Assembly: GCF_026339935.1 (NCBI RefSeq) | Contig: NZ_JAPEPX010000001.1 | Coordinates: 3,777,501-3,841,500 of the forward strand | Direction: 5' to 3' | DNA length: 64,000 nucleotides | Source: Streptomyces sp. NBC_01551 | GTDB taxonomy: Bacteria > Actinomycetota > Actinomycetes > Streptomycetales > Streptomycetaceae | In this document: positions 53,698 through 55,437 of the stretch, piece by piece | How the letters are laid out: the number at the start of each line of letters is the position of its first letter | How positions within the stretch are numbered: the first letter of the stretch is position 1 | The notes under the pieces: model-generated | What the model was told of the DNA's origin: nothing | Database searches by the model: none | What the model saw: only the letters and a program-made list of their open reading frames with translations | Position numbers and translations under genes: made by a program

Positions 53698-53727
53698 GGA
53701 TCCCGTTAGCTTCATCACACACCGAAC

Positions 53728-53766
53728 CGCCCCAGCGCTGGCCGAACCGCCGGTAGTGCTGGGGCG
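53728..53766 (+). terminator. Hairpin after DUF4229 gene
   Basis: Arms CGCCCCAGC/GCTGGGGCG with a 21-nt loop that can form additional pairs. Probable terminator ending the GNAT/DUF4229 unit. Confidence 0.6.
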
Positions 53767-53835
53767 TTGGCGTTTTCCGGGGACCGTACGGGCCGCGCAA
53801 GGGGGCCTGTCGCGCCGCTGGCTCAAAGGGTGCCT

Positions 53836-53865
53836 TTGAGGTTCTCAAAGGGTAAGTGTTAGCGT
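53836..53865 (+). promoter_or_regulatory. Promoter of the polycysteine leader/symporter unit
   Basis: TTGAGG (53836-53841), 18 nt, TAGCGT (53860-53865). A start 8 nt downstream falls on the A of the leader-peptide ATG at 53873, so the leader peptide is predicted to be leaderless. Confidence 0.62.
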
Positions 53866-53872
53866 GTTCAAC

Positions 53873-53980
53873 ATGTTGACCTCAGCTGCGCACCCGATGA
53901 CCGCGAGCCTTCCGCTCGTGGCGCGCCTGCACGTCGACCTCTGCCGCCGCGTGTCCGCGGCCTGTTGCTGTTGTCGCTGA
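53873..53980 (+). CDS. Polycysteine leader peptide (attenuator uORF)
   Basis: A 35-residue frame starting MLTSAAHPMTASLPLV, continuing ARLHVDLCRRVSAACCCCR and stopping at 53980. The RLHVDLxRRxSA-C segment is characteristic of short actinomycete leader peptides before sulfur-metabolism genes, and four consecutive Cys codons (53963-53974) sit three codons before the stop. In mycobacteria, leaderless polycysteine uORFs attenuate downstream genes according to cysteine supply. Here the 155-nt segment between its stop and the symporter can form GCCGG/CCGGC-type stems. It should sense charged tRNA-Cys and let the symporter be expressed when cysteine is scarce. The mechanism is inferred. Confidence 0.82.
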   Translation: MLTSAAHPMTASLPLVARLHVDLCRRVSAACCCCR

Positions 53981-54135
53981 CCGACGTTGAGCCGGTGTCG
54001 GGCAGGCGCTGAGCCGGCCCCTCGCCGAATCGATACAGCAGCGGTCCCGGCCGGCACCCTTCCGGCTGCCGCACCGCCTCACCACCGCAGAAAATCCCCC
54101 GCCTTTCCTTTGTGCGTCACTTCCGGAGTGTGTCC

Positions 54136-55437
54136 GTGTCCGCGACCCCGCAGGCCCCCGCCAAGGCCTCGTTCAAGTTCCCCTTCTGGGCCCAGATCAT
54201 CACCGGTCTCGTGCTCGGCGTGCTGTTCGGCTGGCTCGCCAAGAGCCAGGACATCAGCTGGCTGAAGACCACCCTGGAGCAGGTCGGCGACATCTTCGTC
54301 CAGCTGCTGAAGCTGGCCGTCGCCCCGCTCGTCTTCTTCGCGATCCTGGTGTCCATCACCAACCTCCGGAAGGTGAACAACGCCGCGCGGCTCGCCTCCC
54401 GCACGCTGCTCTGGTTCATGATCACCTCGCTGATCGCGGTGGGCATCGGCCTCGCGATCGGCCTGCTGACCAACCCGGGCGCCGGCACCGGCCTCACCCC
54501 GCAGGACGGCAAGCTGCCGAAGAAGACCGGCTCCTGGATCGACTTCCTGACCGGCATCGTCCCGACGGACGTGGTCACGCCGTTCACCGAGCTGAACGTC
54601 CTCCAGATCGTCTTCATGGCCGCCGTAGCGGGCATCGCCGCCCTCCAGCTCGGAGCGAAGGCGCAGCCGGTCCTGAGCCTCGCCGAGTCCGTCCTGGAGC
54701 TCCTGCAGAAGGCCCTGTGGTGGGTCATCCGCCTGGCCCCGATCGGCACCGTCGGCCTCATCGGCACCGCGATCGCCACGTACGGCTGGGACCTGATCGG
54801 CAAGTACGCCACCTTCACCGCCGACGTCTACGTCGGCTCGGCGCTGGTCATGTTCGGCGTCTACCCGCTGCTGCTCGCGACGGTCGCCAAGGTCAACCCG
54901 ATCCAGTTCTTCAAGGGCGCCTGGCCCGCGATCCAGCTGGCCTTCGTCTCCCGCTCCTCGGTCGGCACCATGCCGGTCACCCAGAAGGTCACCGAGCGCC
55001 TCGGCGTCCCGAAGGAGTACGCCTCCTTCGCCGTCCCGTTCGGCGCCACGACCAAGATGGACGGCTGCGCCGCGATCTACCCGGCGCTGGCGGCGATCTT
55101 CATCGCGCAGATCTTCGATGTCCAGCTGGGCATCAAGGAGTACATCCTGATCGCGTTCGTGTCGGTCGTCGGCTCGGCCGCGACGGCCGGCCTGACGGGC
55201 GCCACGGTCATGCTGACCCTGACCCTCTCCACCCTCGGCCTCCCGCTGGAGGGCGTCGGCCTGCTGATGGCCATCGACCCGATCCTGGACATGATGCGCA
55301 CCGCCACCAACGTGGCCGGGCAGGCCGTGGTCCCGGTCATCGTCTCGGCCCGCGAGGGAATCCTCGACAAGGAGGCCTACGAGGCCGCCTCGTCCTCCCC
55401 GCTGGACGAGCGCCCCGCGGTCGCCGTCGCCGCCTGA
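54136..55437 (+). CDS. DAACS-family symporter, probable L-cystine (TcyP-like) importer
   Basis: A 433-residue dicarboxylate/amino acid:cation symporter with eight helices and two re-entrant hairpins. Hairpin 1 reads SRSSVGTMPVT (near 272) and the helix 7 motif is TTKMDGCAAIYPALAAIF (near 305), where glutamate and C4-dicarboxylate carriers have NMDGT; the GCA-I-P form resembles TcyP/YdjN cystine carriers. The preceding polycysteine leader supports sulfur amino acid uptake. The GTG at 54136 has GGAG 7 nt upstream; the GTG at 54112 is less likely. GltP-type glutamate or succinate transport remains possible. Confidence 0.88.
   Translation: MSATPQAPAKASFKFPFWAQIITGLVLGVLFGWLAKSQDISWLKTTLEQVGDIFVQLLKLAVAPLVFFAILVSITNLRKVNNAARLASRTLLWFMITSLIAVGIGLAIGLLTNPGAGTGLTPQDGKLPKKTGSWIDFLTGIVPTDVVTPFTELNVLQIVFMAAVAGIAALQLGAKAQPVLSLAESVLELLQKALWWVIRLAPIGTVGLIGTAIATYGWDLIGKYATFTADVYVGSALVMFGVYPLLLATVAKVNPIQFFKGAWPAIQLAFVSRSSVGTMPVTQKVTERLGVPKEYASFAVPFGATTKMDGCAAIYPALAAIFIAQIFDVQLGIKEYILIAFVSVVGSAATAGLTGATVMLTLTLSTLGLPLEGVGLLMAIDPILDMMRTATNVAGQAVVPVIVSAREGILDKEAYEAASSSPLDERPAVAVAA

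Follow-up and report, generated by a model that had tools for sequence, protein, structure and literature searches.

A conserved leader peptide with a UGU cysteine codon upstream of a TcyP-like symporter gene in Streptomyces: a probable cysteine-responsive attenuator

In mycobacteria, leaderless poly-cysteine upstream open reading frames (uORFs) reportedly act as attenuators, in which an RNA structure is said to hide the downstream ribosome-binding site. Here we describe a related layout in Streptomyces sp. NBC_01551: in a stretch of 64,000 nucleotides (the window; contig NZ_JAPEPX010000001.1, positions 3,777,501 to 3,841,500; all of the features described below are on its forward (+) strand and are numbered from its first letter), a leaderless-type uORF of 35 codons precedes the gene for a symporter of the SDF/DAACS family. 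We consider it likely that this uORF works in cis as a leader sensed by the ribosome, of the actinobacterial R-x-H-V-D-L-x-R-x-x-S-x-x-C type, and that it sets the expression of the symporter, most likely a carrier of cystine or of another sulfur compound, by the supply of cysteine; it is probably an attenuator akin to the mycobacterial ones that acts by a nascent-chain-assisted pause at a single UGU codon.

A 2015 paper (PMC4633059, accessible text) describes mycobacterial leaderless uORFs that are rich in Cys; the poly-cysteine attenuators of Canestrari 2020 are cited in the available portions of PMC9031893, PMC9094748, and PMC13236596, and six cysteine-rich short open reading frames of Mycobacterium tuberculosis are treated in the same portion of PMC9094748. 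As far as these portions describe them, the mycobacterial attenuators and the uORF described here share a short frame of leaderless-type geometry, Cys codons near the stop, sulfur-related genes downstream, and an actinobacterial host. The uORF differs in that one UGU follows R-x-H-V-D-L at D+9 (nine residues after the Asp of this core), runs of at least three Cys are rare among its relatives (15/135), its target is an SDF symporter, and its response to cysteine is a prediction from sequence. Cys leader peptides were also predicted in 2005 upstream of the cys operons in Mycobacterium, P. acnes, and B. longum (Seliverstov 2005, PMC1262725); in these, as in the uORF, the Cys codons lie close to the stop, a terminator hairpin is absent, and the spacer is rich in pyrimidines, but they involve other genes and genera, and the accessible text, whose alignments are figures, mentions neither a fixed UGU nor H-V-D-L. 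The uORFC-8-2 leader of cysS in the Rhodobacterales (PMC8632094, available portion) likewise has conserved Cys codons in a stem; however, it belongs to the Alphaproteobacteria, its tandem Cys codons are mostly UGC, and it has an intrinsic terminator. Also close is NCBIfam NF042934 ('putative leader peptide', cis_reg_atten), which has the same 19-position core with Cys as its last position and for which the family output names no mechanism; the window copy reaches 15.1 bits, against a cut-off of 27. The leader peptides of S. lividans listed in the accessible part of PMC8079986 include none for cysteine, and the literature searched, which was mostly short of full text and in which subscription papers were largely beyond reach, yielded no account of the fixed UGU or of a leader before this symporter.

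The leader frame and its conservation

The frame at 53873–53980 translates to MLTSAAHPMTASLPLVARLHVDLCRRVSAACCCCR and a stop, that is, a peptide of 35 amino acids that ends in ACCCCR. The codons for R-L-H-V-D-L are located at 53924–53941, and the CCCC run is encoded by TGT TGC TGT TGT (53963–53974), the first of which (53963–53965) is the UGU Cys codon at D+9. Upstream of the frame, TTGAGG (53836–53841), 18 intervening nucleotides, and the −10 hexamer TAGCGT (53860–53865) are followed after 7 nucleotides by the ATG at 53873; downstream, the symporter gene (54136–55437) starts with GTG at 54136 and is preceded by the Shine-Dalgarno sequence GGAG (54125–54128); this GGAG-start motif is detected in 75/80 loci. 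An earlier, sequence-only reading of the window had proposed this leaderless-type uORF with four Cys codons before the symporter, as well as a promoter-like TTGAGG-N18-TAGCGT that would place the transcript start at the ATG; both are read directly here, and the start geometry recurs in relatives, as described below.

We read the stretches upstream of two sets of symporter orthologs. The first set contains the window and the best 80 of 591 relatives (81 loci); the second contains 108 orthologs from the genus, family, and class (48 best-match loci and 60 stretches chosen for spread). The symporter is present in 138/199 genomes of the genus (E limit 1e-120), 56/101 genomes of the family (E limit 1e-90), and 112/394 genomes of the class (E limit 1e-90). 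A frame with a core of the [LRV][HR][VIM]DL type is found no more than 450 nucleotides upstream in 80/81 loci of the first set, the exception being L032. A stricter detector restricts the core to R/K, three loose positions, D, and L/H/M, and asks for a stop no more than 16 residues further on, preceded by a Cys anywhere in the tail and not specifically at D+9. This detector is positive for 79/81 loci in the first set (not L027 and L032) and 56/108 in the second, so a leader with the same core is located upstream of 135/189 orthologs; the corresponding frequencies are 0/189 on the opposite strand and 1/3,780 in Markov shuffles. When the strict core R-[LR]-H-[VI]-D-L is used and the tail is left unconditioned, the leader is found in 134/189 and never on the opposite strand. 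Judged by this comparison, the uORF looks like a genuine leader that is conserved widely and controls an amino-acid transporter.

The start of the frame is also conserved. In the Streptomyces promoter comparison, 79 loci were scored (80 had the core frame; L046 was dropped). The start codon follows the −10 hexamer after 7 nucleotides in 63 loci, 6 nucleotides in 9, and 1 nucleotide in 4, so the leaderless geometry (6–7 nucleotides) is present in 72/79; the start codon is ATG in 60 loci and GTG in 16, with none assigned in 3. Because a scan for the sigma-70 consensus at the locus gave no match, the promoter is assigned by comparative evidence and not by consensus. In L046, the 5′ part of the leader region is an inverted repeat of itself that contains an N, probably an assembly error.

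The peptide, the UGU codon, and the leader family

In the 135 detected leaders, R (D−4), D, L (D+1), and V or I (D−1) are present in 135/135 and H (D−2) in 132/135; Cys is located at D+9 in 135/135, and the stop codon is found 10–18 codons past D. Because the detector restricted the core but did not ask for Cys at D+9, the frequencies in the core partly reflect the search pattern, and those at D+9 do not. The D+9 codon is TGT in every detected leader (79/79 in the first set, 22/22 in other Streptomyces, and 34/34 in other genera), whereas at the other Cys sites the numbers of TGT and TGC are 72 and 143, 14 and 43, and 1 and 35, respectively, or 87 and 221 for all 135 leaders. With the strict core and the unconditioned tail, the D+9 codon is TGT in 133/134; L146, which the detector missed, also has TGT at D+9. 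Upstream of the symporter gene in L161, the loosely matching core of a short frame (RRTVDYGRRVTCAC) is likewise followed by a Cys at D+9 encoded by TGT; this frame is not included in the counts.

The residues of the core are conserved, but their codons are not. In the 56 leaders of the second set, R (56/56) and L (56/56) are each encoded by four codons, H (53/56) by CAC in 30 and CAT in 23, and D (56/56) by GAC in 37 and GAT in 19; that conserved residues are written by varied codons implies that the peptide itself is under selection. The bases that flank the UGU differ between genera, which speaks against a longer nucleotide motif. TGT accounts for 61/327 Cys codons in heuristically picked open reading frames on related loci, 12/99 in the open reading frames of the window, and 1/155 in the symporter genes. 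CAT and GAT are frequent in the Streptomyces leaders, in which TGT and TGC total 149 and 141; because these leaders share a tendency to T-ending codons, the overall frequency of TGT proves nothing, and it is the site-specific contrast at D+9 that counters a general T-ending bias as the source of the UGU.

The run of four Cys codons is a different matter: CCCC is found in just 7 of the 135 leaders, CCC or longer in 15, and CC or longer in 72. The sequence-only reading had taken this run as the sensor, which the orthologs do not bear out; it had also looked to conservation of the Cys codons in related genomes, which fails for the run and holds for the Cys at D+9. To the extent that these alignments can tell, what evolution protects is a fixed peptide and one UGU Cys nine positions on, not a cysteine run.

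The same peptide and codon are found outside symporter loci. We searched 148 genomes of the class and 14 control genomes with the NF042934 protein profile (E ≤ 1e-5) and obtained a match in 91/148 and 0/14, respectively. From these matches, which form a longer list, we sampled 29 new loci and 60 further stretches; among the former, 28 could be placed, with Cys required at D+9 and its codon left free, and for the 60 stretches, D was required ten residues from the end of the match with no requirement for Cys. Of these 89 family leaders, 88 can be placed (not L252), and the D+9 codon is TGT in 88/88; the remaining Cys codons past D comprise 18 TGT and 111 TGC. No overlap between the 89 family leaders and the symporter leaders was found.

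In the genome that contains the window, eight other leaders were read; Cys is located at D+9 in 8/8, and its codon is TGT in 7/8. Seven exceed the NF042934 cut-off and precede genes for a sulfatase, ThiS and cysteine synthase, cysteine dioxygenase, nitrite/sulfite reductase, a flavin reductase, a rhodanese, and a PAP2-domain protein; the eighth, below the threshold, precedes a gene for a luciferase-like monooxygenase. Thus, five of the seven (all but those before the flavin reductase and PAP2-domain genes) precede sulfur genes, which sustains the kinship with RLHVDL-type leaders of sulfur genes that the sequence-only reading had suggested. The window leader and its relatives match the core of NF042934 members (R-x-[HA]-[VI]-D-L, with Cys at D+9), and in G399, G402, and G404, the leaders directly upstream of the symporter orthologs score above the cut-off. 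The leader before the cysteine dioxygenase gene (L085; RVHMDLLRYAGCVC) is of the same type, although this enzyme degrades and does not supply cysteine; the sign of its control is puzzling.

Operator-like repeat and RNA pairing

The promoter contains a repeat. Half-sites arranged as CTCAAAGG-N3-CCTTTGAG-N3-CTCAAAGG occupy 53822–53851 and overlap the −35-like TTGAGG (53836–53841); the CTTTG..CAAAG pair is present in 74/79 Streptomyces loci and is located 9 nucleotides ahead of the −10 hexamer in 71. The exact form, CTTTGAGNNNCTCAAAG, occurs once in this genome; allowing two mismatches, the pattern is found in 8 further places, compared with 6 per strand for a reversed-pattern control. The CTTTGAG-N3-CTCAAAG repeat looks like the putative operator of some regulator. 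The pattern was not seen in some other genera that keep the leader.

Eight orthologs without a detected leader retain the pair near the gene (L109, L110, L111, L113, L114, L117, L142, and L133). In seven of these (not L133), the symporter's own ATG is 6–7 nucleotides past the −10 hexamer, which suggests that the leader was lost and that the symporter gene itself is leaderless. In four loci of one other genus (L191, L200, L201, and L202), the pair is kept and a diverged frame beginning MTT is found at the same distance; L191 and L200 retain a TSTPL stretch, and none of the four has H-V-D-L.

Three strands of RNA in and after the leader may form alternative structures. Strand 1 (GTTGCTGTTGT, 53964–53974) is within the Cys codons; strand 2 (ACAGCAGCGGT, 54035–54045) is complementary to strand 1 in 11 positions, G-U pairs allowed, although for the window alone this match is not rare (p 0.115 against shuffles); and strand 3 (CCGGCTGCCGC, 54062–54072) closes an alternative hairpin that strand 2 can open, as judged from the folds of relatives. 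In Streptomyces with DLCRR-type leaders (the group of the window), a match of at least 10 positions between the Cys codons and the region after the stop is found in 11/15; where the leaders are of the DLCRC-M/L/T type, 42/46 have a match of 9 or more positions at the Cys-Arg-Cys codons. The matched Cys codons are shifted between the groups, from about D+2..D+5 to D+9..D+12, and most copies in both groups contain a strand 2 core, CAGC[AG]GCGG or GCAGCGG. The energies of the whole duplex are better than those of shuffles in 36/46 DLCRC-M/L/T leaders, 8/15 in the window's group, and 13/17 in a third Streptomyces group. On weak evidence, namely, energies in GC-rich DNA, pairing of strands 1:2 as opposed to 2:3 might be the layout of an attenuator with mutually exclusive structures. 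The spacer also contains the heptamer CCGCACC in 43/73 Streptomyces loci (5.2 expected from shuffles, which ignore descent); no partner for it was found.

Mechanism and alternatives

Arrest peptides commonly contact the constriction of the exit tunnel about 7–12 residues from the peptidyl-transferase centre, and UGU is read by tRNA-Cys through wobble. In the mechanism that we infer for the pause, its dependence on cysteine, the RNA switch, and the resulting output, the ribosome would pause with the UGU in the A site when charged tRNA-Cys is scarce; R-L-H-V-D-L, by then some 7–12 residues up the exit tunnel, would strengthen the pause; and the pause would alter the nearby RNA pairing (strand 1:2 against 2:3), thereby raising the output of the symporter, either through termination (Rho-dependent or intrinsic) or through translation. 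The extra Cys codons would be an elaboration peculiar to the lineage of the window, in which they double as strand 1.

Several observations weigh against this account. The leader is dispensable, because none is detected in 52/108 orthologs of the second set (at least one, L146, is a detector miss); the window peptide falls short of the NF042934 cut-off; and a single Cys follows the core in 8/135 leaders, so a graded sensor that counts codons cannot be the general rule. At D+9, L027 has the strict core followed by CGT in a frame that runs on for 32 codons, possibly a decaying leader, and L089, which precedes the PAP2-domain gene in the genome of the window, has TGC. The complementarity of strands 1 and 2 is individually significant in only 2/15 DLCRR leaders (the window is not one of these), 29/46 DLCRC-M/L/T leaders, and 0/17 leaders of the third group; the 2:3 hairpin is weak (mean z −1.0 in the 11/15 and −0.8 in the 43/46 leaders with the element); and the duplex energies in the window's group are no better than those of shuffles and better than those of swapped partners in only 4/15, although we set this last test aside because swapped partners differ in composition. 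Pairing to the symporter's Shine-Dalgarno region is found at p ≤ 0.05 for the leader in 0/73 and for the spacer in 2/73, neither above shuffles; these tests use energies alone and do not disprove a hidden ribosome-binding site, but the proposal of the sequence-only reading that stalling opens symporter expression gains nothing from them as stated. A scan for intrinsic terminators at the locus found no terminator-like site. Rfam gave no element at gathering score over the leader; at a relaxed threshold, the sole match within 53700–54300 is at 53728–53770 (E 2.3), under its gathering score.

A simpler attenuator, in which the run of four Cys codons gauges charged tRNA-Cys and H-V-D-L is incidental, is how the mycobacterial leaders work according to the accessible text of papers citing Canestrari 2020, and both the local CCCC and its complementarity to 54035–54045 fit it; however, this is unlikely given the rarity of long runs and the leaders with a single Cys, the near invariance of H-V-D-L and the invariant D+9 spacing, and the synonymous variation that marks the peptide as selected. 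That the CTTTGAG-N3-CTCAAAG operator is the main control, responding to a dedicated repressor or activator while the leader merely tunes or insulates translation, draws on the conservation of the pair and its spacing, the uniqueness of the exact form in the genome, and the eight orthologs that keep the pair without the uORF; we regard it as decidedly unlikely, because the leader is kept in 135/189 orthologs, including genera in which the operator pattern was not seen, and its peptide and codon are strictly conserved. Selection on the peptide could also be expected if the uORF product were a small peptide acting in trans, which seems highly improbable: the conserved core spans about 17 residues (D−7 to D+9) and ends 1–9 codons before the stop, the N-terminal bodies are variable, and a single genome can have the core ahead of several different sulfur genes. 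A short conserved core, variable N-termini, and repeats before sulfur genes are the layout of a cis-acting leader.

The symporter is a member of Pfam SDF (PF00375, 354 bits) and contains SRSSVGTMPVT and MDGCAAIYP. Overall identity, which is 30% to E. coli TcyP, 29% to GltP, 29% to DctA, and 25% to SstT, does not discriminate, and neither does a tree of 34 proteins place it by itself: the orthologs form one clade (100/100) apart from GltP, DctA, and SstT, but the position of TcyP, which has a long branch, is uncertain. An ordinary carrier of acidic amino acids or C4-dicarboxylates with an accidental link to sulfur would agree with these identities, with the best NCBIfam scores (DctA, 211 bits; GltP, 170 bits; both under cut-off), and with retention of the Asp and Arg of the D-x-x-R motif in transmembrane helix 8 (TM8), as in aspartate transporters; also, among solved structures the nearest are those of aspartate and glutamate transporters, which counts against a cystine-type assignment. 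We nevertheless consider an ordinary carrier somewhat unlikely. The symporter has an insertion of one residue and a G-C-[AG]-[AG]-x-Y-P-A motif, both shared with TcyP (YdjN), also of the SDF family, and not with GltP, DctA, or SstT, so the TcyP-like motif of the sequence-only reading stands; E. coli TcyP as the query against 79 genomes of the class (E ≤ 1e-30) gives 12 matches, each of which is the ortholog of this symporter; and the leader is of the sulfur type. Thus, the symporter is likely to be a cystine-type carrier, an assignment made by motif.

The reading of the uORF as a cysteine-sensing leader can be extended to the class, an extension that we offer tentatively and with some doubt: actinobacterial sulfur genes would be run class-wide by one nascent-chain-gated, single-codon sensor at the near-invariant UGU. 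R-x-H-V-D-L in the tunnel would make the ribosome hypersensitive at the UGU nine residues later, and this wobble-read codon (hardly ever UGC) would report the charging of tRNA-Cys or perhaps a sulfur-dependent base modification; the leader of the symporter in the window would be one branch with added Cys codons. What needs explaining is no longer how many Cys codons there are but a single codon and a single peptide, and the invariance of the UGU (135/135 and 88/88, with L027 and L089 as exceptions) at a constant distance from this peptide, in genomes that mostly write UGC, makes a sharp prediction about how the ribosome reads sulfur status. The comparison also offers a likely role for an actinobacterial clade of SDF symporters, the Streptomyces members of which are, among the matches listed, mostly labelled dicarboxylate/amino acid:cation symporter, and species that lack the leader yet have the promoter are natural controls.

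Elsewhere in the window, 57602–57868 matches the Streptomyces small RNA family scr4677 (RF02673, 115.6 bits).

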